A DNA stretch of 24,372 bases from a virus. The first letter of the stretch is position 1. Each line of letters begins with the position of its first letter. Shown in pieces: positions 2 through 18,618 of the stretch. The position numbers and the translations under genes were made by a program. Location of the stretch: IMG/VR virus record IMGVR_UViG_3300004369_000867, positions 1 through 24,372 of that record. One strand, written 5' to 3'. Below the pieces are notes generated by a model. It saw nothing but the letters and a program-made list of their open reading frames with translations, was not told the DNA's origin and did no database searches.

Positions 2-1696
2 TCTGATGCTTGCGTGGGAAGAGACGACCCCTTGGGTTCCTGTCTTTATGGTCCACAAGCGTATGTTGACGCAACTGTTCTTGACCCAACTCCAGTTACC
101 ACAACTACGAGTAGCACTACAACTACTACAAGTACAACAACCACTACAAGTACTACAACAACAGTTCCACCAGTGACTACAACTACAACCGTCTATGTGT
201 CAACAGTAACAACCACTACTGAACCAGAACCTGAGCCAAAACCTGAGCCAGAACTTGAGCCAAAACCTGAGCCAGAGCCTCAGCCAGAGCCTGAACCAGA
301 GCCTGAACCAGAGCCTGAGCCAGAACTTGAGCCGGAAGAAGAAACTACAACGACTACTTCTGTTCCTGAGACCATTTTTGAAGAGCCTTCAACAACGAGC
401 ACCACTGTTTGGGAACTTGAAGAAGAAGACGAAATAGCGACAACATCTATTCCTCAATATGAGGATGAACAGCCAGAAGAATCCCAGCCAGTAGAGCCAG
501 ACCAAGTAGAGGAAATAGAAGAAGAATCATCAGAAGTAATCATATCACCTGATGAGGCAATTGCGCCAGAAGAGTTTGAAACAATTCTTGACAATATAAC
601 AAATGGGGATTTTGAATCAGAAGATATCCTTGAGTTTGTAGATAATCTCAGCAATGAGCAGGTAGAAAATTTATTTGAGGAAATAGATACCGAGCAGGCT
701 GTTGAGGTGCTAGAGGAATTAACAACGCAGCAGTTAATTGAGACACTAGAGAATGTATCTGTAGAAGTTATAACAGAGGTTCTGGATGATCTTTCAGACG
801 AAGTAGTTAATGACATTATTGATAATATTGAGTCAGAAGAACTACTAGAAGTTATTGAGGAATTAAATGAAGAAGAAACCACTAATCTTGTTGAATCAAT
901 AGATTCCAAAGATGGGCTAGAAAAAGTATCTGAAGCAATATCTGATTCAGATGAGCCAATTGAAGCGGAAGTTGCAACAGCAATTATTTTAAATGAAAGC
1001 TTTAATGAGGTTTCTGAAGAGACAGCAACGGCGGTGTTTGAAAGCATTGATACGAGTTCTTTTTCAGGAGAGCAAAAGGATGAAATAGCAGAATCACTGA
1101 CCGAAGCGCCGGATGAAATTAAAGATGTTTTTGAAGAAGAGATTGATATTTATGGAGACGGGTTTAACGACTACACACCAGTTGGATCAGCAATTGATGT
1201 TGGGGAAAGAAAGACAGTTATTGCTGCAGTCGCTACATTGACTGCAACAGTTGCCGTTGCGGGGGCATCGCCCACTCCAAGTGCCCCATCGGGAGGCTCC
1301 TCGTCATCAGGAGGCTCCCCATCGGGCTCAGGAGGCTCAGGGGGCTCTTCTAATGGTAGTTCTGGTGGAGAAGCCCGCTCACGCAAAGAAGAAGAAGCTG
1401 GGGGGATGGCGGGAGAGATTGCTGGCCCAGATGGCGATGGTAATGATACGAGTTATGCACGTAATAGCATTTTCAAGTATTATATAAAGGAGGGAAATGA
1501 AATGAAGAAATTTAACTGGCTTGGTTTTAGTAAAAAACTTTGGGATATAACAGCTGGACTAGCCTTTACTTTGGCTGGCAGCTTTGTTGTTTATATTACC
1601 CTGTCTGGCTCAACTCAGAGGCTTGCTGGAATTGCAACACTTATTGCCCTCTTTGTTCATTACTTAAGTGAAATCTTAAAAAATGACACAGAATGA
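2..1696 (+). CDS. Acidic Thr-rich/Pro-Glu-rich membrane-anchored protein, 5' end cut by the window
   Basis: The frame is open from base 2, so the gene probably starts before the window; the GTG at 14 has no ribosome binding site. Visible order: a short Cys-containing segment (SDACVGRDD), a Thr-run linker (about 95-220), an EP/KP repeat (221-343), a very acidic helical region (about 560-1150) of short 11-15-residue units with the pattern L-x-x-hydrophobic, resembling superhelical MgtE-N-type repeats, a hydrophobic segment (KTVIAAVATLTATVAVAG, about 1210-1263), a Gly/Ser linker (1280-1370), and a C-terminal part with two predicted membrane helices. Thr-run linkers of this sort are common in actinobacterial surface proteins. 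I do not recognise a function; a cell-envelope or virion-surface role is a guess. The last 64 codons have their own strong ribosome binding site and are listed separately. The opposite-strand open frame at 454-1047 is a shadow of the acidic repeats. Confidence 0.6.
   Translation, partial: SDACVGRDDPLGSCLYGPQAYVDATVLDPTPVTTTTSSTTTTTSTTTTTSTTTTVPPVTTTTTVYVSTVTTTTEPEPEPKPEPELEPKPEPEPQPEPEPEPEPEPEPELEPEEETTTTTSVPETIFEEPSTTSTTVWELEEEDEIATTSIPQYEDEQPEESQPVEPDQVEEIEEESSEVIISPDEAIAPEEFETILDNITNGDFESEDILEFVDNLSNEQVENLFEEIDTEQAVEVLEELTTQQLIETLENVSVEVITEVLDDLSDEVVNDIIDNIESEELLEVIEELNEEETTNLVESIDSKDGLEKVSEAISDSDEPIEAEVATAIILNESFNEVSEETATAVFESIDTSSFSGEQKDEIAESLTEAPDEIKDVFEEEIDIYGDGFNDYTPVGSAIDVGERKTVIAAVATLTATVAVAGASPTPSAPSGGSSSSGGSPSGSGGSGGSSNGSSGGEARSRKEEEAGGMAGEIAGPDGDGNDTSYARNSIFKYYIKEGNEMKKFNWLGFSKKLWDITAGLAFTLAGSFVVYITLSGSTQRLAGIATLIALFVHYLSEILKNDTE
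95..220 (+). repeat. Thr-codon low-complexity tract
   Basis: ACN-rich trinucleotide tract encoding Thr runs broken by Ser, Val and Pro. It acts as an unstructured, possibly O-glycosylated linker in comparable actinobacterial proteins (family knowledge). The tract mixes ACA, ACT, ACC and AGT codons, so it is not a pure microsatellite. Confidence 0.8.
221..343 (+). repeat. Glu-Pro (EPEP/KPEP/ELEP) codon repeat
   Basis: About 41 residues of alternating Glu-Pro with Lys, Leu and Gln substitutions, built from imperfect copies of the hexamer GAGCCA/GAACCT. Such (EP)n/(KP)n stretches form stiff extended rods, as in TonB-like spacers, so this could span a cell-wall or capsid-surface distance. Confidence 0.8.
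1502..1696 (+). CDS. Possible separate small two-helix membrane protein (in-frame internal start; holin-like)
   Basis: An AAAGGAGGG Shine-Dalgarno (1486-1494) sits 8 nt before an ATG at 1502, in frame with the larger upstream ORF. Starting there gives 64 residues, MKKFNWLGFSKKLWD..., with a charged N-terminus, two hydrophobic stretches (about residues 16-33 and 39-57) and an acidic end (ILKNDTE). That is a normal layout for a small phage membrane protein or holin. The site lies directly upstream of two more small membrane proteins and an endolysin. Either the fusion, the short form, or both may be made; the strength of the site argues that the short form is real. No stop codon separates it from the upstream reading. 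Confidence 0.55.
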   Translation: MKKFNWLGFSKKLWDITAGLAFTLAGSFVVYITLSGSTQRLAGIATLIALFVHYLSEILKNDTE

Positions 1697-1744: not shown

Positions 1745-1975
1745 ATGTCTACTAAGTCACAAAACTTAGATCAAGTAGTAAAAGGCGGTGCACTCGGAGT
1801 TTGGGTGTATCTAGCTTCAAAACAGAATCTGGATGCGGAGGTTATTGCGGCTCTTACACCAGCGATTGCTTACGCTCTTGCATGGCTGTCAACAAAGGTT
1901 GGCGATCCAAAAATCGCTTCGTTTTTAGCACAGAAGCCTGCCCCTGAAAAGCCGGCAGCAAAAAAGAAGGCATAA
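1745..1975 (+). CDS. Small membrane protein, holin candidate
   Basis: 76 residues. The start ATG is preceded by AAGGAGGTGAT (1732-1742), a near-perfect anti-16S match. Two hydrophobic segments are visible (GALGVWVYLA, about residues 15-24, and VIAALTPAIAYALAWLS, about residues 33-49), followed by a Pro/Ala/Lys tail ending AAKKKA. Size, membrane segments and the positively charged tail fit a phage holin, and the gene sits two genes before an endolysin in an apparent operon headed by the promoter at 1683. The call rests on context and topology, not on a recognised family signature, so a lysis regulator or other inner-membrane protein is possible. Confidence 0.5.
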   Translation: MSTKSQNLDQVVKGGALGVWVYLASKQNLDAEVIAALTPAIAYALAWLSTKVGDPKIASFLAQKPAPEKPAAKKKA

Positions 1976-1978
1976 CCC

Positions 1979-2239
1979 ATGGATCAAGTCAAGAATATAT
2001 GCCTTCGTATATTGGCGACTTTTTCAGCTTCAGGGCTAGGTGTCATTGGAGCAGGTACGATTGCTGGCGTTCCCGTTTGGAAGGCGGTTTTTATGGCGGG
2101 GATTGCTGGCGTTGCTACTGTTGTTGAAGGATTGTCACGTGCATTCCTGGATGATGGTAAACTAAGTGTTGATGAAATTAATCAAGTCTTTAGTAAGGTT
2201 GATAAAAAGAATATCAAAAAAAATGAGGAGGAGTTCTAA
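1979..2239 (+). CDS. Small membrane protein, holin candidate 2
   Basis: 86 residues, 3 nt after the previous stop, with AGAAGG as ribosome binding site inside the upstream gene. Two hydrophobic helices (about residues 8-28, ILATFSASGLGVIGAGTIAGV, and residues 32-50, VWKAVFMAGIAGVATVVEG) are followed by a hydrophilic tail (DDGKLSVDEINQVF, then Lys/Asn/Glu-rich). The pattern of two Gly/Ala-rich helices followed by FLDDGKLSxDEIN resembles small proteins encoded beside endolysins in actinobacteriophages, and I favour a holin or holin partner. Its stop TAA at 2237-2239 abuts the endolysin start, and the endolysin ribosome binding site lies inside this gene, implying translational coupling. Confidence 0.55.
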   Translation: MDQVKNICLRILATFSASGLGVIGAGTIAGVPVWKAVFMAGIAGVATVVEGLSRAFLDDGKLSVDEINQVFSKVDKKNIKKNEEEF

Positions 2240-3055
2240 ATGAGCGTTAAATGGAACATTATTGCTCCAGTTAAAAAGCCAGCAGATCTTGCCGGCATTG
2301 CCCCCGGCAAGTTGCCGGAAAGGTTGTTGAAGCCTGTTAAAGGTGGAGGCAAGTTGCACTGGAGAGCTGCTGCTGCTTGGGATGCAATGGTTGAGGCTGC
2401 AAAGGCTGATGGTCTTGAATTAAAGCCAACATCGTCTGGAGACACATATCGCTCATTTGAATCTCAACTTATGGCATTTAGACAAAGATATCAAAAAGAA
2501 CCAATTGAAGGTGCAAGTACAAGAACCTTTCAGGGAATTAAGTGGTATAAAAAATCACCAAAATTGGCGAGCCTTGCTGCGCCCGGTACCTCACAGCATA
2601 ATAGCGGATTGGCTGTCGATGTTCATAGCGCAGGTGAGCCAAAGAGGTTGAATTGGTTAATTGATAATGTTAGAAAATTTGGGTTTAGTTGGGAATTAGT
2701 TCCAGAAGAACCATGGCATTTGCGATACACCGAGGGTGACAATCCTCCCGCAGCTGTTGTTGAATATATTACAAAGACTGGTGGTGTAGCACCAGCCCAA
2801 CCAGCAACATCAGCCCCATTGCCAAATCAAAATAGAAAAAAAGAAGCAAAAGATTTGCCAGAAATTAGAAAAGGCTTTAAAGGTCGTGCTATTGTAAGAG
2901 CACAAAGGCTTCTTACCAGGCATGGTTTTGCATGCAGGCCTGATGGAGATTTTGGTCCTAAAACACAGGCTCAGGTTAAAGCATTTCAATTAAGTCGCGG
3001 GATTGAGCCATCTGGTGAAGTTAATCTTCTTACTTGGGAAGCATTGCTGAGTTAA
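2240..3055 (+). CDS. Endolysin: M15 (VanY-type) D,D-/L,D-carboxypeptidase with C-terminal peptidoglycan-binding domain
   Basis: 271 residues with the GAGGAGGAG ribosome binding site inside the preceding gene. The N-terminal catalytic domain shows the M15 zinc signature: SQHNSGLAVDVH gives ligands H120 and D127, and EEPWHLRY gives catalytic E157 and ligand H160; YRS with R71 fits the conserved substrate-binding arginine. After a Pro/Ala linker (about residues 184-200), residues about 207-271 (IRKGFKGRAIVRAQRLL ... GDFGPKTQAQVKAFQ) are a PG_binding_1 repeat. It is expected to cut the peptide stem of peptidoglycan at lysis once a holin opens the membrane. There is no signal peptide, which fits holin-dependent release. 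All key residues are present. Confidence 0.92.
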   Translation: MSVKWNIIAPVKKPADLAGIAPGKLPERLLKPVKGGGKLHWRAAAAWDAMVEAAKADGLELKPTSSGDTYRSFESQLMAFRQRYQKEPIEGASTRTFQGIKWYKKSPKLASLAAPGTSQHNSGLAVDVHSAGEPKRLNWLIDNVRKFGFSWELVPEEPWHLRYTEGDNPPAAVVEYITKTGGVAPAQPATSAPLPNQNRKKEAKDLPEIRKGFKGRAIVRAQRLLTRHGFACRPDGDFGPKTQAQVKAFQLSRGIEPSGEVNLLTWEALLS

Positions 3056-8134: not shown

Positions 8135-8443
8135 ATGTCAAATAATGACTTGTTTAAGGGAGTAGAAATCACTTTTTCTGATGGGAAGAAGAGAACTATT
8201 AAGCCCCTAACAATCAAGAACCTTCGTGAATTTATGAAGGTTGCAAACAATATGAAAAGCAATGACGAAAGCGGAATGTCTGATGAAGATATTGACAAGA
8301 TGGTTTCCGCTGCGGCGATTGCCTTGAAAAAAGCAGATCCAGAACTTGCTGCTGACAGAGATGCCCTTGAGGAAATTCTTGACTTGAGCACCTTTGCCCA
8401 GGTGATGGCTGCTGCCATGGGTAACGACCCAAACCCTCAGTAG
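8135..8443 (+). CDS. Tail assembly chaperone, short form (gpG-like)
   Basis: 102 residues, ribosome binding site AGGAGA (8120-8125). Mostly helical and acidic: GVEITFSDGKKRTIKPLTIKNLREFMKVAN ... DIDKMVSAAAIALKKADPEL ... LEEILDLSTFAQVMAAAMGN, typical of gpG-type chaperones, where a short beta start is followed by a helical bundle and a DLxTxxxVMxAAMG C-terminus just before the frameshift site. It keeps the tape measure soluble and helps recruit tail tube subunits. The last codons carry the heptamer CCCAAAC (8428-8434), and a fraction of ribosomes should shift into the -1 frame to make the longer form. Confidence 0.85.
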   Translation: MSNNDLFKGVEITFSDGKKRTIKPLTIKNLREFMKVANNMKSNDESGMSDEDIDKMVSAAAIALKKADPELAADRDALEEILDLSTFAQVMAAAMGNDPNPQ

Positions 8444-8793
8444 GAGATGGTCAAGGTTCGGACGAACCACTTAATTGGGACGACCTGCCTCTCCTAAAAT
8501 ATGAAGCCGAAGTTTTTGTCCACACAGGGGCGTGGCTTAGCCTAGAAGAACTTGAAGAGTCATTAATTCTGCACGAATTATTTTTGTTGTATCGTGCATG
8601 TGCAAATGCATTCTCTAGAAATCTCAAGGCCATGGCTATGGTTCAAGGTGCTGAAGGCGTTGACCTTGATGAAGATTGGTATGATACGGAATCTGCCAAT
8701 CAAACAAAAGCTGATTCAGTTATGAGAATGCACGACATGCCGGGTATGGCAGCGTCTGGTCTATCCTTAGGATACGAAACTTCAAGTGAATAA
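8135..8793 (+). CDS. Tail assembly chaperone, long form made by -1 frameshift (gpGT-like)
   Basis: Reading zero frame from 8135 to the AAC ending at 8434, then -1 frame from 8434 to the TAA at 8791-8793, gives 219 residues: 100 from the G part plus 119 from the T part. The T part runs PSVGDGQGSDEPLNWDDLPL, then HTGAWLSLEELEESLILHEL, LYRACANAFSRNLKAMAMV, then an acidic tail. The -1 frame has a stop at 8422-8424 and is open from 8425, so the shift must occur between 8425 and the zero-frame TAG at 8441; CCCAAAC lies in that window. The ATG at 8632 and others are weak, so a separate T gene is unlikely. Location before the tape measure gene is the classical one. Confidence 0.85.
8428..8434 (+). 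promoter_or_regulatory. Programmed -1 ribosomal frameshift slippery site CCCAAAC
   Basis: XXXYYYZ heptamer in correct phase: zero-frame codons CCA AAC re-pair as CCC AAA after slipping back one base. A small hairpin GGTTC-GGAC-GAACC (8455-8468) begins 20 nt downstream and might contribute to stimulation, though the spacing is longer than the usual 5-9 nt. Confidence 0.88.
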
Positions 8794-8850: not shown

Positions 8851-11800
8851 ATGTCTGATATTGATGTCATTATACGTGTACATACACAAGGTGTTCAAGA
8901 AATTGGAAACCTTAGCGCTTCGCTTAGAGGCCTTAGCACATCGTTGCGGAATATCAATGTTCCAATGTCAAAACTTGACACTAGCTCAAGAGCTGTATAT
9001 AAAGCGCTAGGGGTTACTTCTCGTGGCGTTGATAATCATGCAAAATCAATTAAGGAATTGGTTAGAAACCAAAGAGTTCTTGGAGCCGAAACCAAAAATA
9101 TTACAAGAGATTTAAACGGTTTAAGAAATGCTTACGCCTTGGCCGGAAAAGAATCTACATCCCTAGGTAGAGCTATTGGGGTCAGTGCCACCCAATTGTC
9201 TGGATTTTCAAGAACATTTCGGGGGATGCGACTAAGGGCATTCGGCTCAGATCTCAGCAGTATTTCTCTCAGGATGACCAAGCTTGGTAAAGATGCCCAG
9301 TTTGTGGGTAGAAGCTTGATGATTAACTTGACTTTGCCACTTGCAACATTTGCTCGGGTGGGGCTGCGGAGTTTCTTGGCAATAGAAAAACAACAGGTTC
9401 GGCTTGTTAAGGTTATGGAAAACTTGGCTAGCACTGCGGACATAGCGAGAGAAAAAATTCTAGGACTTGGCTCAACGGAAGCCCTAACGCCTGAGCAGGA
9501 AGTTCGTGCCAAGGGGATGGTTAAGTCCTTTAAGGATATGGATGATGCCCTCACCGCCTTGTCGTTAAAATTTGGTGTATCAAAAGAACTTACAACATCT
9601 TTAGCTGCTGACTTTGCTGAACTCGGTATAACTTCAGAAGAAAATGTTAAAAGCATTACAAGGCTTACCCTTGAGATTGAAAAACTCGGAAGCATGGATG
9701 TTGGTCCAGCGCAGGATTTGTCACAAGCTCTTTTCTTCCAGTCAAAGAGAGCATTTGAAGTCACTAGGGCATTTGAAAAACTGACAACGGCGCGGCAAAG
9801 AGAAGAGAAGGCCATCAAGTCTTCTATAACACAAATGTATTTATTCAATGCAATTGAAAACGCAACTGCATTAACGCTCGAAGATTTGGGCGATTCGTTT
9901 TCTGAAATTTCAGCCATGGCAGTAAGTTATGGTTTGTCAATGACAGAAGCAGCAGCCCTGCTTGCTCCAATGAAAGCGGCCGGTCTTGATGTTGGCGCTT
10001 CCGCCAACTCAATCAAGGTTTCACTCCAGAGATTGTTGGCTCCAACAAAACAAAATACTCAGGAATTGCAAAAACTTGCAGAGCGATTTGGGGTCGCAGG
10101 TGATGCGCAGAATGAATTTGCCATGTCAACAAAAACAGGTCTTGTTGGTCTTAGTGCCGTTGTCAAAATGTTTGATAGGGTAAGAAAATCATCGCAGGGC
10201 TCCGAGGGTGCTTTGCGATTGATGTCCGATTTGTTTGAAAAGCGCCAAGGGCCAAGAATGTATTTAGCAATTGAGCAGCTTGCTGATTTTAACAATGAAT
10301 TGGCAAGGGTAGATGATGAATTTGCAAATCTCAATGTTGAAACAGCAGAAGCAAGACTTGTTAGGGCAGCCGAGAGTGCTACTGGGGCATTTACAAATTT
10401 CAACACCACTGTTGTTCCTAAAACAATTAGATCTTTTCAGGATATTGGAAAAGTCGCAAGAATTGCTAGTGCTTTCGAAGGTCAAATAATTGAATTTGAG
10501 CCGGGGGTGGAAACAAAGATTACGACGCAAGATATAGCTAATGCAAAAGCAATGAGAAAGGCAGTTGCTGATACGGTTTTGGAAGCCAAGCGTCTAGAGG
10601 GAATAGACATTATTTCTGAAGTAAAAACCGAGTCTGGTAGAGCGTTAATGATCCAGCTTGCGGGTGCCACTAATGCTGCTGATGTTGCACAGCAAGAGTT
10701 GGCAAGAAGCCTTGCCACAGCAGGTGTCTCAATTGAGTCGCTAAAAACTACATTCAAAATGTTTGCTGCGGACATTGTATCTGGTTTAATGCCAACAATT
10801 AAAAGTCTTTCTGAGAGAGTTCAGCAAATGTATAATACATGGAATTCGGAAGACTTCGCACAAACACGACAAAATATAATTAGACTTATTACGGTTGTCG
10901 GTGGCATCTTGACAATCCTTGGTCCAATTACTCTTGCCGTTGGTACATTGCAATCAGTGATTGGTAAATTTGGATTGGTTATAAGTAGATTTGTTCCCAA
11001 ACTAAAAAATGTTGATGGAGAATTTACAAGGCTGGGGCAAAGTGCTCAATTTGCAAAAAAACAAATAAATGGTGTTTACGAAGCGTTTGTGCAAGCGGCT
11101 GGAATGAGAGCAACTGGAAATGCTCTCGCCGCCTCCCCCCCGCTCCCCACGGGTCTAGCCAGCCCTGCATTTGTTCCAAAAATGCCCGAGGCTGTAACTG
11201 CTGCAAGAAGAGCGCAGTTGATTGATCAACAAAAAAGAGAGGCGATGCGAGCAGCGGGCGTTACGGCTGCAGAAAGAAGAATGGCGCAAAAAGAATTTGC
11301 CGCCGGCACAAAGGCTCCAACAACTGGTGCTAGGGCCAGGGGTACATCTGGGAGATTTCTTCCAAGGAATGTTGTTGAGGGGTTAAGAATAATTGAGGCA
11401 AGTGAAGTTGCTCGCGTTACACCTACTGGCGTTGGCTCTAAACCATCAACTGGAAGATTTGCATCGCGCACCGAAGCAATGCTTGCTCCAATCAGAAGAC
11501 AAGAATCTGTATTTGCAAGAAGCCCATATCTTAAAGAAGCAGGTGTCTCTACTGATAGAATGGGAACTAGATTCATTCGTCGCGGTAGGCTCATTACAGA
11601 GGGGCAAGCTGATGATTTGGCTTTGGGTGGTTTAAGGGGTGTTAGAGGTCAAGCTGGCATACTTCGTGATAGATTAAGGAGTGGAATTAGAGCAATTCCA
11701 TCCCGCCCAGGCATTGCTGCCGCAAGGGCAGCAGCCGCCATAGCTCCATCAACTGGCGCAGGCGCTGTTAAGGGTGCAGCCGCTGGTATTAAAGCAAGCA

Positions 11801-14800
11801 CGGTAGCCATGGCCCAAAATATGAGTTCCGTCAAGGGGGCAAAGGATGCGATGGCAGCCCTCAATGCTCAGTATGGCGCTTTTGGTGAAAAACCGGGAAT
11901 AATAAAGAAGATGTCAACTGCGATGCTGGGCTTTGTTAAGAATCTAAAATTTGCAACCCTTGCTGCAAGAATTTTCAAAATGACTCTAATGTTTAGTGGT
12001 GTTGGAGCAATAATTGCAGTTGTTGCGGGCATTATATACTTGGTAGTTCAAAATCTTGACAAAATTAAAGGCTCCGCAAAAGTTATGGAGCCACTGAAGA
12101 GAGCCTTCACTGCTGTAAAAGATGCAGTATTCATGATGATTAGGCCAATTCAAGATTTGTTTGGCATGTTTGGATCAGGGGGAGATGAGGGTGCAAAAGC
12201 TGGCAATGCGATTGTAAAAGCATTTGAAGGTATGGCTGCGGCAGTTGAATTCGTTGCTGGTTTATTTAAAGTTTTTGTTGAAAAGGTAATTCAGCCGTAT
12301 CTCTATGGAATAGTAAATATAGTTATGGCTGTTGTTTCAATGTTTAAAGGTAATTGGGGGGATGCTTTTAATTTCTTGCTTGCAGGTGTTGGGTCAGTAG
12401 TTAAGGGAGTTATTAATCTCTTTATTGGGTTGGGATCTGGCATAATATCAATTATCGCTAAGGCGATAACAATGGTTCTTGATGTTTTTGGGAAAATCCC
12501 AATTATTGGCGGCGTATTCAGATTAGCAAGTAAGGGAGTTAATGCTCTTGCAAATGGCGCAAAATCTGTTCTTAAAACCGTTGGTGGCTTTGCCACTGGG
12601 CAACTAGATAAAATAATTGACAAGGGCGTAAAAAAGAGCAAAAACGCAATACAGAAGGGCAAGAAGCCAATAGTCGATACAGCAGAAGATATTGGAGAAG
12701 ATGCTGGTGAGGCTATTTCAAATGCATACGGTAACGCTGATATGGATAGTGCCAGCGATAAAATCAAGAAAAAAATTAAAGAAGGCTTAGCGGATAAAGC
12801 CCAAGAACTTTACGATTATGTTGTTGAAAGATTTTCAAGTTCAATAAGTAAATTCGTTACTGAAAGCGTTAAGGCTCTTAATAAGCAAAAGGAAGCTGCT
12901 CTTAAAGTCTTTGATATTCAAATTAATACACTCGTAAAGCTTGAAAAAGCAGAAGAGTCGCTGACTAGAGCAAAAGAGTATGAAACTAACAGAAGAAAAC
13001 TTATTGATGACGCTGCTCTCCGTCAACAAAATTATGTACGCGATCGTGCACTTGCTATTTATGAAGGTCGTGTTGACGATGCCAGAATTCTAGATCAAGA
13101 AGAGCGGGTTGCGTCTAGGGAGTCCGATTCAGAAATTGCAACACTTGATCAGGGTAGAAGAAAAGATCTCGCTAAGGAAAACCTTGAATCCTTAAAGGAT
13201 GCAATTAAAGATGCACAAGAGGTTGCTGGTAGATTTTTTGATGAATCAATTGAGAAATTCCAAGAAGCAGCTGCGCACATTACCAGAATAGCTCCAGTTA
13301 CACAAGAGCAGTATGCTGCTCAGCTTGAAGAACTCCGATTGAAGACAGTTGAATACTCAGACAAAAACAATCTAGAGTTCGGAGCAATGTTTGAAAAGTT
13401 TGCTACAACAATAACTGATAGGATGCCAAATACGGTTGACCAGTTTGGGGTGGCACTGGGGGCTTTTGCTACTCCACTTGATGAACTTGTGACTCTTGCT
13501 ATGAACAAATATGGTTTAGGCTCGGAGTCTGATAATACCCTTTTGGGTGTTACCAAGCAGATGTCTGATTCAGTCATTGGTATAACACTTGGAATGCTGG
13601 TTGACATTGGTGATACGTTTACGACAGCAGCCCCAGCAGTCGTAGAGCAGTTTGGTGATGTTACTGGTGGAATTACCGGAGAGATTGGCACATTCAAGAC
13701 TGAAGCGCTCGGATTGTTTACAACACTTCTTTCAGAAGTAAAACTTGAGTTTATTACGCCTTTCCAAAAAGCTCTTGATGAAGCTGAGCCAACAAAAGTA
13801 TTTAATGAGGCAATAATTGATGGCAATGAAGAAATCTTAAACAGCTTTAGAAAGATTCTTGCACTCAATCCCGATTTGATGGACAAGATAAGTAAAAGCT
13901 TGGACCCAGCAATTAAAAAATATCTTGCCCTGCAAGCTGCTGCTGAGGCTGCAGCTGATGCAATGAATAATGCTGGCGGTGCCCCTCCTGGTAATTATAC
14001 TGACGTTTATGCTGGGATGGATGCCGAAACCCGGCGATTTGCCAGAATCAAAGAGGGCATTGACGCAAACATACGCACTTCCTTGATGAGCCAGGGCGAT
14101 TCGTATTCAAGAAGATTAGCGCAGTCGGGTAATTTCCAAAGAATATATGAAAATAGAAATACTGAATTACTCAACAAGTTACCCATTCAGATACGAAATC
14201 GTGCAAATGCTAACCCTTTGAATCGCGAAGTTGGTGGTCCAATTCCAAAAGGTGGTGTATTGGGTGCAGACGGGATGGGTGTTACTGGCTTCCTGAATGC
14301 TCCAACAACTCAAGGGATTCCTGCAATTCTACATGGTGGGGAGTTTGTTATTAATGCAGAAGCTGTCAAGAGAGTTGGCCTTGGTGCATTGGCAAAGATT
14401 AATGACTCAAGAATTCCAAAGTTTAAGAAGGGTGGATTTGTGGGTGCGCCAGATCGGGTGGAAAGAATGGCGCTCGCTAGAAAAAAAGAAAAGGCGATGA
14501 ATTTTGCAACTGCGTCTGTTGGGAATTTTAAAAGAGCTGTTGAGAGAGCAGAGGCTCCAGTTAAAGATACAAGAAGTTTTAAACAAAAAACTTTTGATGT
14601 TGTTAAAGGTCTTGGAATGGTTGCTAAAAATGCTGCGGGGGGTGCCATTAGTCAATTTAGTAAAATTGGAGCACAAGATGGCTTAATTGATAAGTTGACA
14701 AGATTTGATAAATCAAGTGTTGATCTAATAGCGGGTGGCATTGGAAGATCCGGCAAAATATTAAAAGGGGCATATAGCAATGTCCTTTTGCCAATAGCAG

Positions 14801-17800
14801 AAAGTTTTAATGCTACTTTTATAAATCCTGCTATCAATACTGGCGGAAGACTTATTGGTAAAAAACCAAACCTTCGTCAAGCCGGGATGGTTGAGAGTGC
14901 CATGAATATAGCCGATGTCGTATCAACAGTTTTCACCCTAGGTGCAAGTAAAGTCGCTACAACCACTGGTAAGGCTACATTAACTGCAGTACTGAGAGAG
15001 GTGGCAAAAGGATCTGTAAAAACATCGGATGAGATGATGGCTCAAAAATTGGTGACGATGGGGATGTCAGGAAAATTCCCCACAATGGCTTCACAATTAA
15101 CGCCAAGCAATTTTGGTATTGATGCAACATCCTTTAGACCAAAAGCTCCAATAAGAGATGTTCGTATGGTTATTCCTCAGCAACTTGCTCTTCCGGCTGG
15201 TCCACGAATAGGTAAAAATCTGCCTGCTGTAATTCAACGACCACTTAACATAAAAACTGAAAAAGTGCTTGGTCGTTCTGTTCTGCCTGAAGATTTTGAT
15301 CGCCTCGGCTTTCTTTTCTCCGATAGTTCCGAACAATTTATCACTCAAGCAAAAGGCGGGTATATTCATGATATTTTAGGCGAAAAAGTCGGATTTGGAT
15401 TAAGTGATGATTTATTAAAAAATGTTCCGACTTTAAGAGGGGTTCAAAATATTCCTTTAAACCCCCTTGATATTACTGGGACATCAAAAACCGGTCAAGA
15501 TGCCGTTAGTACGGTAAGCGGATGGCTTGAAGCGCACGTTGGGTATGCATCTAGAGGCGGTGATGTTCATGATACATATGTATCAGCACTCCTGCACGCC
15601 GCCTCAGTAAAAAAGAATCTTCAGGCTCAGCTTGAATATGTCAATTTAATGCTAGAAGGAAGAAAGGCGACAGCCATGAAAGCCGCTCGGTTGAATACGC
15701 CTGAGATTATTAGCGAAGGCAATCTGCTGGCCATTCAAAGGGATCCTCGGATGAAGAACTTGAATTTTGATAAGTTGATGGCTGTTCACGAAACATCATA
15801 TCCATTTGAAATAGATGAAATTGGTGATGCCATTTTGCGTCCAACAAGTGACTATATAAAAATTCCGACAAGTGATGGTGAAGAAATCTTCAGAGACACA
15901 GTTCATTTTGCATTAAATCACGTTGTGAAGCCAATAGCAAATAGATCAAGTGTACCTCGTGAAACAGGTCGGCTAATAGCCATTAAATTAAAAGATCTAA
16001 TTGATGCCAACCCCATGGCAGTTGAAAATATAATGGGTGTAGACACATATTTTACTCCAAGACCTGGTGAGGGGATCAGGTTCCCTGCTGGCAAGTATGA
16101 AATTCTTGATTACAATAATCTGCCAGTTCAGGGCTACACTGGTGAACAGGAGCAAAGGCTAAACGAGATTTTTGGGAGATTACAAGGGCTTGATATGCGT
16201 GAATACATTCCTGGTGAGAGCATGGAGGAGTCTATAGAAAATGGTTGGCGGACAATCATACACAGGTTAAGACTTGAACCAGACGTTGGTGGTCACGGGT
16301 TGGATGATTCTGTGCAAACGGGCGCTGTTTGGAATGCTATAAGTGGTTTTAGACAAGCACAGGAATATTCTATAAGAATGGGAAGGCATTTTGATGACCA
16401 GGTTTTGGGCACATATTCTGTTACAAAAAACTTTGCTAAAGGACAAATGCCCGGTTTCAGAGATGACCCATACGGTTTTAAATATTTGCTCAACTCGTTT
16501 GGTGAAGCAAGTCCTAATGCCTTTGCAAGAATAATTGGAAGAGACCCTTTTATGCAAGCAGGCACCATCCCTATGGAAAATCCTGCGCTGAATGCAAGGA
16601 TTGTAAGAATTATGAAAAGGATACAGAAGGAATACGTTATGAGAAATAGCATGGGACCAATCGAAATGCCAGCCGCTTCTGTTCAGGATGCAATGCTGCC
16701 AGTTACCAGAAGAAGTGCTGATTCAATTGCGTATGTCAGAGATGCCGACCCATTAGATCTCATGGGGAACACCCCATTTACCCCTCCAGTAATTAAACCT
16801 CCTCTTGCGGCTAGAAGCTTCAGCGAGCAGATGGAAGTCTTTAGAGCCCTTAACGGCTTGGCTAGTGCTAAAAATGCGCCACTCCGGCCCTATCAGCAAA
16901 CACTTATTGAGGAGTACACAAATACCTTCAATAAACTCTTGACCTTGAGGGCGCTTGATTTGTCTGGGAATAAAGTTGGTCTTGAAGCCTATGTTGCCAG
17001 AGTTGGGAAACTGTATGGAGCCGATGGCAGCTTTGGTCATCCAATTAAACCAAATTCAGGCATACCACTCATGGAACGGATGGAAGCTGCGGGGTTGTTT
17101 AGTGGTTCTTTGCGTTTTGCCGATGTTCTTGATAATCCAGAAATTCAGCAAATGATAGATGTCTTGATGAGGGATACGAATCAAGCAATGAGGGCTGGTT
17201 CGGTTGTGTATCCGGAAAATATTGAAACCTATCGTGGTCTATCCCTATTGGCTCCAGTAGACGATCCCAGAAAGTATTTGGATCACCTATATAGACCGGG
17301 GTACACGCTTCCTGGTCAGTATGCATCAACATCCGTCAACGAAGAAGTTGCTAAAAGTTTTTCAAGTGGTCCTCTCCTTAAGTCCACCAATCCATACTCC
17401 TCGACATACGAAACAATCCCAATCTTGGAGCATATCACTATTCCAAAAGGCAATGAAGTTTTTTCGCCAAGTTATTACGGTCTAGGATTGCAAAATGAAA
17501 GAGAAATTATTATACCTCCAGCATACAGATTAAGAGTTGATGATATTTTAGAGCCAGATGCTGGTGGAAATGGATATTTTAGAGTCCAAGCAACTGCAGT
17601 AAAGGCTGCTGCTATGGCTGGCTTAGGGGGAGTCGGTATTGTTGGGGCATCAATGATCCCCACCCCAAGCCAAGCGCAAGCAATGACCGCTGACACAATG
17701 GAAAGGGTGCAAAATCAAAAAATTGCCTATTATGAATCGGTTAGGCGCTTGAATGAATTTATTGCGGGTGGAGAAACAAACAATGTTTCTGATCCATACA

Positions 17801-18618
17801 ACGCAATACATTCACGCATGGAGCCAGTAGCCGATTTGACATCCATGACAATACGGCAAGCTATTGATTTTGCAAACCAATTTAAATTAAGCAATACGGA
17901 GAGTTCTGGAGCAATTGGTAAGTATCAAAATATTCCGAAGTACCTAGGCGACAGAGCTCGCCTTGCTGGATTTAGTCTAGATAGTCTCTATGACGAAAAA
18001 ACTCAAGAACTTATTGCTCAATCTTTTCTACTGAAATCTCTTGGTGGCAATGGCATAGGTCTTGAAAATTATTTGAGTGGTAGAAAATCTCAAAAGTATA
18101 TGATAGATAGAATTGCAAATATCTATCGTGGCATGCCAGGATCAGATGGTCGGTTCGTGGGCGGAGGGGGCAATAAAACAGGTTCCGACCTCAACATGTT
18201 GGGGAATCTTAAAAATTATCTAACCGCAGTCAAATCATTTTATATGCCGGGGTTCAAAGAAGGTGGCTTTGTTGGTGGAATGCCATCAACGGCAATCCCA
18301 GCCATGCTTCATGGTGGCGAATATGTAATTAATGCCAAAGCGGTTCAACAACTTGGATTGCCGTATCTCAATGCAATGAATCAAATTAGCCAATCACAAT
18401 TTAGACCGCCATCTTCAAGGGTCAATGCTCCAACTGGGGCCGTAACAAATAATGTCAGTACTGTAAATATCCAAGTTGAAAACTTTGTTGGGGAAGAAGC
18501 TTGGTTTGAATCAATGATGGAAGAATACAATATCAATGTCTTACCAAAAAATCAAAAACTTGCTGGTTTAGAAAAGAGAAGATTTTCAACCTACAACGGG
18601 ATTAATCAAGGTCTATAA
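8851..18618 (+). CDS. Giant tape measure protein with embedded ADP-ribosyltransferase and muramidase domains
   Basis: 3255 residues, unusually long for a tape measure (most are under 2000). Residues 1-560 are a TP901/lambda-type core (MSDIDVIIRVHTQGVQEI start, long helices, VSYGLSMTEAAALLAPMKAAG). Gly/Ala-rich linkers occupy about 750-1020; membrane-type segments lie near 1041-1070 and 1144-1230 (GVGAIIAVVAGIIYLVV and following), as expected for a protein that inserts into the host membrane at ejection; charged helices at about 1278-1475. A typical tape measure end motif, IPAILHGGEFVINA, occurs at about 1823 and again at about 3149 (IPAMLHGGEYVINA). Between them lie an unrecognised domain (about 2090-2560), an ADP-ribosyltransferase (about 2735-2905), a hydrophobic AQA-ending segment (about 2918-2944), and a lambda-lysozyme-like muramidase (about 2970-3130). 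It sets tail length and is ejected into the cell. The next gene starts on its stop codon. Confidence 0.9.
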   Translation: MSDIDVIIRVHTQGVQEIGNLSASLRGLSTSLRNINVPMSKLDTSSRAVYKALGVTSRGVDNHAKSIKELVRNQRVLGAETKNITRDLNGLRNAYALAGKESTSLGRAIGVSATQLSGFSRTFRGMRLRAFGSDLSSISLRMTKLGKDAQFVGRSLMINLTLPLATFARVGLRSFLAIEKQQVRLVKVMENLASTADIAREKILGLGSTEALTPEQEVRAKGMVKSFKDMDDALTALSLKFGVSKELTTSLAADFAELGITSEENVKSITRLTLEIEKLGSMDVGPAQDLSQALFFQSKRAFEVTRAFEKLTTARQREEKAIKSSITQMYLFNAIENATALTLEDLGDSFSEISAMAVSYGLSMTEAAALLAPMKAAGLDVGASANSIKVSLQRLLAPTKQNTQELQKLAERFGVAGDAQNEFAMSTKTGLVGLSAVVKMFDRVRKSSQGSEGALRLMSDLFEKRQGPRMYLAIEQLADFNNELARVDDEFANLNVETAEARLVRAAESATGAFTNFNTTVVPKTIRSFQDIGKVARIASAFEGQIIEFEPGVETKITTQDIANAKAMRKAVADTVLEAKRLEGIDIISEVKTESGRALMIQLAGATNAADVAQQELARSLATAGVSIESLKTTFKMFAADIVSGLMPTIKSLSERVQQMYNTWNSEDFAQTRQNIIRLITVVGGILTILGPITLAVGTLQSVIGKFGLVISRFVPKLKNVDGEFTRLGQSAQFAKKQINGVYEAFVQAAGMRATGNALAASPPLPTGLASPAFVPKMPEAVTAARRAQLIDQQKREAMRAAGVTAAERRMAQKEFAAGTKAPTTGARARGTSGRFLPRNVVEGLRIIEASEVARVTPTGVGSKPSTGRFASRTEAMLAPIRRQESVFARSPYLKEAGVSTDRMGTRFIRRGRLITEGQADDLALGGLRGVRGQAGILRDRLRSGIRAIPSRPGIAAARAAAAIAPSTGAGAVKGAAAGIKASTVAMAQNMSSVKGAKDAMAALNAQYGAFGEKPGIIKKMSTAMLGFVKNLKFATLAARIFKMTLMFSGVGAIIAVVAGIIYLVVQNLDKIKGSAKVMEPLKRAFTAVKDAVFMMIRPIQDLFGMFGSGGDEGAKAGNAIVKAFEGMAAAVEFVAGLFKVFVEKVIQPYLYGIVNIVMAVVSMFKGNWGDAFNFLLAGVGSVVKGVINLFIGLGSGIISIIAKAITMVLDVFGKIPIIGGVFRLASKGVNALANGAKSVLKTVGGFATGQLDKIIDKGVKKSKNAIQKGKKPIVDTAEDIGEDAGEAISNAYGNADMDSASDKIKKKIKEGLADKAQELYDYVVERFSSSISKFVTESVKALNKQKEAALKVFDIQINTLVKLEKAEESLTRAKEYETNRRKLIDDAALRQQNYVRDRALAIYEGRVDDARILDQEERVASRESDSEIATLDQGRRKDLAKENLESLKDAIKDAQEVAGRFFDESIEKFQEAAAHITRIAPVTQEQYAAQLEELRLKTVEYSDKNNLEFGAMFEKFATTITDRMPNTVDQFGVALGAFATPLDELVTLAMNKYGLGSESDNTLLGVTKQMSDSVIGITLGMLVDIGDTFTTAAPAVVEQFGDVTGGITGEIGTFKTEALGLFTTLLSEVKLEFITPFQKALDEAEPTKVFNEAIIDGNEEILNSFRKILALNPDLMDKISKSLDPAIKKYLALQAAAEAAADAMNNAGGAPPGNYTDVYAGMDAETRRFARIKEGIDANIRTSLMSQGDSYSRRLAQSGNFQRIYENRNTELLNKLPIQIRNRANANPLNREVGGPIPKGGVLGADGMGVTGFLNAPTTQGIPAILHGGEFVINAEAVKRVGLGALAKINDSRIPKFKKGGFVGAPDRVERMALARKKEKAMNFATASVGNFKRAVERAEAPVKDTRSFKQKTFDVVKGLGMVAKNAAGGAISQFSKIGAQDGLIDKLTRFDKSSVDLIAGGIGRSGKILKGAYSNVLLPIAESFNATFINPAINTGGRLIGKKPNLRQAGMVESAMNIADVVSTVFTLGASKVATTTGKATLTAVLREVAKGSVKTSDEMMAQKLVTMGMSGKFPTMASQLTPSNFGIDATSFRPKAPIRDVRMVIPQQLALPAGPRIGKNLPAVIQRPLNIKTEKVLGRSVLPEDFDRLGFLFSDSSEQFITQAKGGYIHDILGEKVGFGLSDDLLKNVPTLRGVQNIPLNPLDITGTSKTGQDAVSTVSGWLEAHVGYASRGGDVHDTYVSALLHAASVKKNLQAQLEYVNLMLEGRKATAMKAARLNTPEIISEGNLLAIQRDPRMKNLNFDKLMAVHETSYPFEIDEIGDAILRPTSDYIKIPTSDGEEIFRDTVHFALNHVVKPIANRSSVPRETGRLIAIKLKDLIDANPMAVENIMGVDTYFTPRPGEGIRFPAGKYEILDYNNLPVQGYTGEQEQRLNEIFGRLQGLDMREYIPGESMEESIENGWRTIIHRLRLEPDVGGHGLDDSVQTGAVWNAISGFRQAQEYSIRMGRHFDDQVLGTYSVTKNFAKGQMPGFRDDPYGFKYLLNSFGEASPNAFARIIGRDPFMQAGTIPMENPALNARIVRIMKRIQKEYVMRNSMGPIEMPAASVQDAMLPVTRRSADSIAYVRDADPLDLMGNTPFTPPVIKPPLAARSFSEQMEVFRALNGLASAKNAPLRPYQQTLIEEYTNTFNKLLTLRALDLSGNKVGLEAYVARVGKLYGADGSFGHPIKPNSGIPLMERMEAAGLFSGSLRFADVLDNPEIQQMIDVLMRDTNQAMRAGSVVYPENIETYRGLSLLAPVDDPRKYLDHLYRPGYTLPGQYASTSVNEEVAKSFSSGPLLKSTNPYSSTYETIPILEHITIPKGNEVFSPSYYGLGLQNEREIIIPPAYRLRVDDILEPDAGGNGYFRVQATAVKAAAMAGLGGVGIVGASMIPTPSQAQAMTADTMERVQNQKIAYYESVRRLNEFIAGGETNNVSDPYNAIHSRMEPVADLTSMTIRQAIDFANQFKLSNTESSGAIGKYQNIPKYLGDRARLAGFSLDSLYDEKTQELIAQSFLLKSLGGNGIGLENYLSGRKSQKYMIDRIANIYRGMPGSDGRFVGGGGNKTGSDLNMLGNLKNYLTAVKSFYMPGFKEGGFVGGMPSTAIPAMLHGGEYVINAKAVQQLGLPYLNAMNQISQSQFRPPSSRVNAPTGAVTNNVSTVNIQVENFVGEEAWFESMMEEYNINVLPKNQKLAGLEKRRFSTYNGINQGL
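14317..14403 (+). repeat. Tape measure end motif, copy 1
   Basis: Encodes 29 residues (1823-1851) beginning IPAILHGGEFVINAEAV and ending AKIN. It shares 18 of 29 residues with the copy at 18295-18381. The phrase HGGExVI is commonly found near the C-terminal end of phage tape measures. A GGFVG box follows shortly after (within 14418-14453). Confidence 0.8.
15769..16110 (+). other. Uncharacterised domain inside the tape measure, with VHETSYPF / VHFALNHVV / DTYFTPRPGEG motifs
   Basis: Residues about 2307-2420 carry three well-defined segments: VHETSYPF (H2313, E2314), RDTVHFALNHVV (H2352, N2356, H2357) and VDTYFTPRPGEGIRFP (D2398). The dense His, Asp, Asn and Arg content differs from the low-complexity Gly/Ala/Ser regions of the tape measure and suggests a folded, perhaps catalytic domain. 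I do not recognise a named family and assign no function. Confidence 0.45.
17050..17560 (+). other. ADP-ribosyltransferase (R-S-E class) domain in the tape measure
   Basis: Residues about 2735-2905. YRGLS gives R2795, ASTSVNEEVAKSF gives the STS motif (S2826-T2827-S2828), and QNEREIIIPPAYRLRV gives the ExE motif (E2883, E2885), followed by the usual I-I-P-x-x-x-x-x-R-V end strand. This is the ordered signature of arginine-directed mono-ADP-ribosyltransferases (VIP2/C3-exoenzyme-like fold, also phage T4 Alt and Mod). These enzymes move ADP-ribose from NAD+ to a protein residue. The strand preceding the third motif (ILEHITIPKGNEVFSPSYYG) also fits. Target is unknown. Confidence 0.8.
17761..18240 (+). 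other. Lambda-lysozyme (gpR)-like muramidase domain in the tape measure
   Basis: Residues about 2971-3130. IAGGETNN places E2975 like the catalytic Glu of lambda endolysin (SEGTDN); SGAIGKYQNIPKYLGDRARL parallels lambda TGAGRYQLLSRWWDAY; then YDEKTQELIAQSFLL parallels the SPKSQDAVALQQI helix and DRIANIYRGMPGSDGRF the CSNIWASLPGAGYG segment. Lambda R is a lytic transglycosylase (GH104). In a tape measure such a domain would open the host wall locally during DNA entry. The comparison is from memory of the lambda sequence. Confidence 0.7.
18295..18381 (+). repeat. Tape measure end motif, copy 2
   Basis: Encodes IPAMLHGGEYVINAKAV and following residues (3149-3177), preceded by FKEGGFVGG (18253-18279), which echoes FKKGGFVGA after copy 1. 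This copy is in the usual place, near the C-terminus. Confidence 0.8.

Follow-up and report, generated by a model that had tools for sequence, protein, structure and literature searches.

Does an open reading frame that holds a second gene, in the same frame, at its 3′ end give rise to one membrane protein or to two? The question is raised by the beginning of a virus record of 24,372 bases, IMGVR_UViG_3300004369_000867, the whole of which is referred to here as the window. The long open reading frame encodes, from N- to C-terminus, a stalk rich in Thr, Pro and Glu, acidic helical repeats that resemble MgtE_N, one transmembrane (TM) segment, a Gly/Ser linker and a hairpin (Table 1). The Shine-Dalgarno (SD) sequence AAAGGAGGG is separated by a spacer of 7 nucleotides from the in-frame ATG at 1502-1504, from which the 64-residue protein MKKFNWLGFSKKLWDITAGLAFTLAGSFVVYITLSGSTQRLAGIATLIALFVHYLSEILKNDTE would be made. 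The preliminary description of this arrangement, an SD and in-frame ATG giving a two-helix membrane protein that is also the C-terminus of the long one, was accurate. A hydropathy scan finds two hydrophobic segments in the 64-residue product, and in an AlphaFold model of the C-terminal 194 residues (mean pLDDT 51.7 overall) the hairpin is helical, with pLDDT of about 70-79, while the linker preceding it is modelled without structure. Both methods place the C-terminal membrane region of the long protein in the short product as well. Of 13 ordinary gene starts checked across the window, 12 have a weaker predicted duplex with the anti-SD than the internal SD has, the exception being the start at 1745.

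Table 1. Features at the junction of the long frame and the nested gene, and the genes that follow.
Feature	Positions	Strand	Remarks
Long open reading frame	2-1696	+	5′ end cut by the contig edge; stop 1694-1696
First TM segment of the long protein	1214-1270	+	Residues 405-423; hydropathy scan; conserved module A4
Conserved NSIFKY motif	1463-1480	+	Directly before the junction
Internal SD, AAAGGAGGG	1486-1494	+	Core GGAGG 1489-1493; duplex -12.8 kcal/mol
Nested gene, in frame with the long frame	1502-1696	+	64-aa two-helix membrane protein; stop 1694-1696
Hairpin TM helix 1	1547-1603	+	Long-protein residues 516-534; hydropathy and structure model
Hairpin TM helix 2	1622-1678	+	Long-protein residues 541-559; hydropathy and structure model
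Next gene, 76-aa protein	1745-1975	+	One hydrophobic segment
86-aa holin-like protein	1979-2239	+	phrog_443 holin, E 4.4e-6
Endolysin	2240-3055	+	VanY peptidase and peptidoglycan-binding domain

Relatives were collected by scanning viral contigs with the C-terminal part of the protein, the hairpin, its version from phage DSL-LC01 and the upstream TM module. This gave 91 non-redundant loci (≤97% identical) with a hairpin and upstream sequence; they are not independent of each other, and counts of loci overstate the number of evolutionary events. Their contigs are mostly metagenomic, with predicted hosts, and the phage family is large and uncultured, its hosts probably being freshwater actinobacteria. 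Only one relative in the phage collection has a name, Actinomycetia phage DSL-LC01, whose genome was assembled from a metagenome and whose predicted host belongs to the Actinomycetia (PMC10611076). Its protein WJZ48438.1 (944 aa) is encoded by the same fused gene, annotated as a single hypothetical protein, and the internal SD and ATG lie six residues downstream relative to those of the window. A scan of genome contigs with the hairpin found no cellular relative. A cellular origin was considered and set aside: the hairpin scan was empty, and the upstream module gave one contig, from a metagenome-assembled genome labelled Gammaproteobacteria. That contig (L229, JAURLY010000091.1) encodes the fused gene and may be a misbinned viral contig. 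No second copy of the hairpin was found across the 12 larger phage records searched. Separately, the 267,766-base record IMGVR_UViG_3300042868_009074 carries two copies of the nested gene (L342 and L344), near 43-53 kb and 260-268 kb.

In profile searches, residues 11-54 of the hairpin match positions 2-45 of phrog_29041 (55 positions, E 7.6e-6), and the hairpin of an L299-type split gene matches it better (E 3.6e-10). This family has no assigned function, and the window hairpin differs in being, in addition, the tail of a long protein. A Pfam search with the hairpin gave no useful match. A virion structural protein, suggested by matches to phrog_8516 and phrog_4150, was rejected because the matches were weak and the module alone did not reproduce them.

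The two parts are fused in one open frame in 84 of the 91 relatives and are separate genes in the other 7. A local frameshift or assembly error, which the preliminary description had asked to be checked, is excluded because the 84 share the same open frame. Neither programmed frameshifting nor stop readthrough applies at the junction in this genome, the frame being open throughout with no stop or change of frame between the parts. Elsewhere in the window, at 8135-8793, there is a probable tail-assembly-chaperone -1 frameshift, of a kind that is ordinary in tailed phages: the slippery sequence C CCA AAC (8428-8434) stands at the end of a 102-aa open reading frame, and the -1 frame is open to 8793, before the tape measure gene (8851-18618).

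An in-frame ATG preceded by an SD that pairs with the anti-SD at -8 kcal/mol or below is present at the junction in 74 of the 84 fused relatives, compared with 7 of 2125 windows of 28 codons (0.33%) in the rest of the same long frames. The codons beneath the SD are chosen in a way that keeps it. Where its first codon encodes Lys it is always AAG, where Arg always AGG, and where Glu it is GAG except in the clade with the SD AAGGGGG; Gln is CAG and Thr is ACG in the relatives bearing GGAGG. With AAG, AGG, GAG, CAG, ACG or GGG each followed by GAG, the GGAGG core survives replacement among Lys, Arg, Glu, Gln, Thr and Gly. All 41 aligned relatives have G as the third base of this GAG codon; the tree shows no change there, whereas third positions change 7.3 times on average. 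Similar tripeptides elsewhere in the same frames contain GGAGG in 5 of 226 cases. A divergent clade with Glu-Gly-Gly, Gln-Gly-Gly or Ala-Gly-Gly at this point has AAGGGGGT or CGGGGGGT, which pair at -10.8 to -12.7 kcal/mol. The 28-codon, tripeptide and third-base controls rule out an SD produced by chance codon use.

In distant members of the family the start signals also move together. In L065, L146, L279, L320, L321, L147, L239 and others the SD and ATG are relocated, in frame and 5-10 nucleotides apart: in DSL-LC01, L146, L279, L320 and L321 the ATG is five or six residues later and AAGGAG has shifted with it, while L147 and the KYxEGTM group have an ATG one residue earlier and a shorter spacer. 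The distance from NSIFKY to the hairpin varies among the fused relatives by whole codons only. Synonymous resampling gave p values mostly between 0.01 and 0.2 for single sequences, with one at 0.39 and L138 at 0.73; this support is modest for each sequence, and its strength is the sum over lineages that are not independent. Overall, the patterns indicate that selection acts on the internal start beyond the amino acids it encodes.

The exceptions fall into a few groups. The members of one clade (L198, L201, L202, L207, L216 and L283, called here the W clade) keep the SD and the fusion and have lost the in-frame start, with TGG where the relative L147 has ATG; the ATG nearby is out of frame and encodes 11-16 residues. 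The combination of a conserved SD with an out-of-frame ATG and a peptide of 11-16 residues is seen in L196, L198, L201, L202, L206-L210, L216 and L283. Outside the W clade the ATG is present in 36 of 36 aligned relatives. L054 and L138 keep the ATG without an SD, and L229, L304 and L355 have weaker SDs. Because these groups exist, a separate hairpin is not strictly required everywhere, and the fusion-only clade suggests an independent function for the hairpin-tailed long protein.

Comparison of the relatives for a stop codon between the two parts, as the preliminary description had proposed, found one in the 7 split loci (L237, L267, L337 and L289/L297/L298/L303), where the hairpin is a separate homologous gene. 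In L237/L238, L267 and L337 this gene is in another frame, its start overlapping or nearly adjoining the stop of the long gene. The long protein ends ...NSIFKYPEEL in L237/L238, where the stop overlaps the next start (TAATG); ...NSIFKYLED in L267, where the ATG is two bases past the TAG; and ...NSIFKYKENS in L337, where the overlap is TGATG and the small protein is N-terminally extended. Thus in L237, L267 and L337 the long protein stops 3-4 codons past NSIFKY, and the small proteins of L237 and L267 begin close to the position of the internal start. In L289 and L297-L303 the long protein ends GGGRRRR, again with TGATG. Some members of the family thus have the hairpin as an independent gene, which shows that it can be encoded as a separate protein. 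On a tree of the short hairpins, parsimony with a split outgroup gives two changes between the split and fused states; many nodes are weak, and either fusion or fission may have come first. Rather than an unconserved SD in a fused form that is always intact, the relatives thus have an SD in nearly all fused genes and a fusion that is not universal. Of the two readings offered at the outset, a stop codon lost between two genes or one frame making two products, the latter is well supported, and the relatives with an intervening stop make both part of the story.

The long protein itself appears to be exported. Many of the homologues with a complete 5′ end have a clear signal peptide, 44 of 67 showing a hydrophobic segment within the first 45 residues when start sites are chosen automatically. 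The ectodomain of L148 is an L-type lectin (E 1.6e-40), and weaker matches were obtained to an SUEL lectin (L008), PA14 (L004) and fibronectin type III (L207). After the ectodomain the homologues have the TM segment about 145-150 residues from the end, then the Gly/Ser linker and the hairpin. L148, L008, L004 and L207 share a conserved C-terminal anchor but differ in their ectodomains, as though the outer part had been exchanged. The predicted topology has the N-terminal part exported, the TM segment running from outside to inside, the linker and NSIFKY in the cytoplasm, and the hairpin passing in-out-in; a free hairpin would share the N-in, C-in topology predicted for the tail.

Among phage genes with two in-frame starts, the dual-start holin S105/S107 of lambda resembles the window in being a membrane protein near lysis genes. 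Its starts, however, are a few codons apart and its products near-equal holins, whereas here hundreds of codons separate the starts, the long form of complete homologues is hundreds of residues larger than the hairpin and is another type of protein, and linkage to lysis genes is not universal. In lambda C/Nu3 the C-terminal part of a larger gene is made separately from an internal in-frame start. The same is true of gene II/X of filamentous phages, as it would be in the window, although the C/Nu3 and II/X proteins have other functions and are not membrane hairpins. The best reading is that the closest analogue is M13 gp1/gp11 and not a lambda-type holin/antiholin, because lysis genes lie downstream on the same strand only in some clades. 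M13 gp11 is made from an in-frame internal start as a shortened protein that retains the membrane anchor, and it forms a complex with gp1, with which it co-purifies (PMC5408679, PMC9228878). Gene I/gene XI of M13 and f1 is, like the window, a membrane-protein gene in which such a start yields a short, C-terminal, anchored product, and here too the frame is continuous and the internal start has its own SD. The likeness is one of layout: gp1 has a cytoplasmic ATPase, whereas the long part here is exported and lectin-like, and, unlike M13, this family includes relatives with the two parts as separate genes.

It would seem likely, with a probability of roughly 80%, that the one reading frame specifies two products, an exported long protein with a hairpin tail and a free hairpin, that assemble together. 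Translation from the far 5′ start would give the long protein, with its signal peptide, variable lectin, PA14 or beta-rich ectodomain, Thr/Pro/Glu stalk and acidic helices, continuing through the single TM segment and the disordered Gly/Ser linker to the two-helix hairpin. The internal SD and ATG would load ribosomes to make the 64-residue hairpin alone, although this start could be occluded by elongating ribosomes. Because the two products have the same predicted topology, the free hairpin would most likely associate in the host membrane with the hairpin-tailed protein, in the way that M13 gp11 associates with gp1. The conserved open frame, the internal start signals, the split relatives and the layout of signal peptide and TM segments are read directly from the sequences; from them we infer the production of both proteins in cells, their complex and its role.

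Three other explanations were weighed against this two-product reading. The fused protein could be the sole product, with the SD-like sequence acting as a translation pause that aids insertion of the hairpin or arising as a by-product of the codons. An SD directly before a membrane segment would suit a pause, and the W clade does retain the SD without an in-frame ATG, but a pause does not account for the invariant ATG outside that clade, for the joint shifts of SD and ATG, or for split relatives that encode the hairpin as its own gene starting at about the same point, and this explanation is very unlikely. It is also improbable that the short protein alone matters and that the fusion reflects neutral loss of a stop, leaving the tail of the long protein as tolerated noise. 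The long proteins that end shortly after NSIFKY in split relatives are presumably functional without a hairpin; nevertheless, 84 fused relatives have no stop, their length changes are of whole codons, and the W clade retains the fusion having lost the short start.

A lysis-timing pair, with the hairpin as holin or antiholin and the long form as its tethered antagonist, competes on function and is compatible with two products; we consider it unlikely. In its favour, the hairpin precedes the 76-aa membrane protein, the holin-like protein and the endolysin on the same strand, and holin-like or endolysin homologues are present in the DNA examined for 77 of the 81 distinct loci. The protein at 1979-2239 has a far stronger match to phrog_26427 (E 4.9e-23) than to phrog_443; the former is labelled nuclease, seemingly in error given the two hydrophobic segments of the protein. 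The same-strand order is, however, a feature of the window clade, and elsewhere the lysis genes are encoded on the other strand or lie at a distance: 25 loci from several clades have the holin-like gene in the opposite orientation, 1-4.6 kb away, while the long protein always adjoins the hairpin. Among the upstream modules compared, all those with a complete 3′ end have a hairpin next, either fused or as a separate gene, and because of this the module and hairpin are tied to each other more tightly than to the lysis genes. Moreover, there is already a separate holin-like gene, and the long product is an exported protein of lectin-like type. The likeness to holin/antiholin systems drawn in the preliminary description is unsupported as such, given starts hundreds of codons apart, a surface protein with a signal peptide, and lysis genes outside the operon in many clades.

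An extension of the two-product reading can be offered tentatively. The infected host may carry the lectin-like protein on its surface, displayed on a platform formed by oligomers of the free hairpin that the same gene encodes. Lineages of this widespread family may have switched between split genes, a nested gene with dual products and fusion only through small indels at the junction, with the ribosome-binding site kept.

Nested in-frame genes are usually missed by annotation, and the single named genome of this family indeed lists a long hypothetical protein only. As its members include split, nested and fusion-only forms, the family provides a test of how nested genes arise and of what is gained from the separate product. 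It also draws attention to a large class of phage proteins, signal-peptide-bearing and lectin-like, that are anchored in the membrane of the infected cell.
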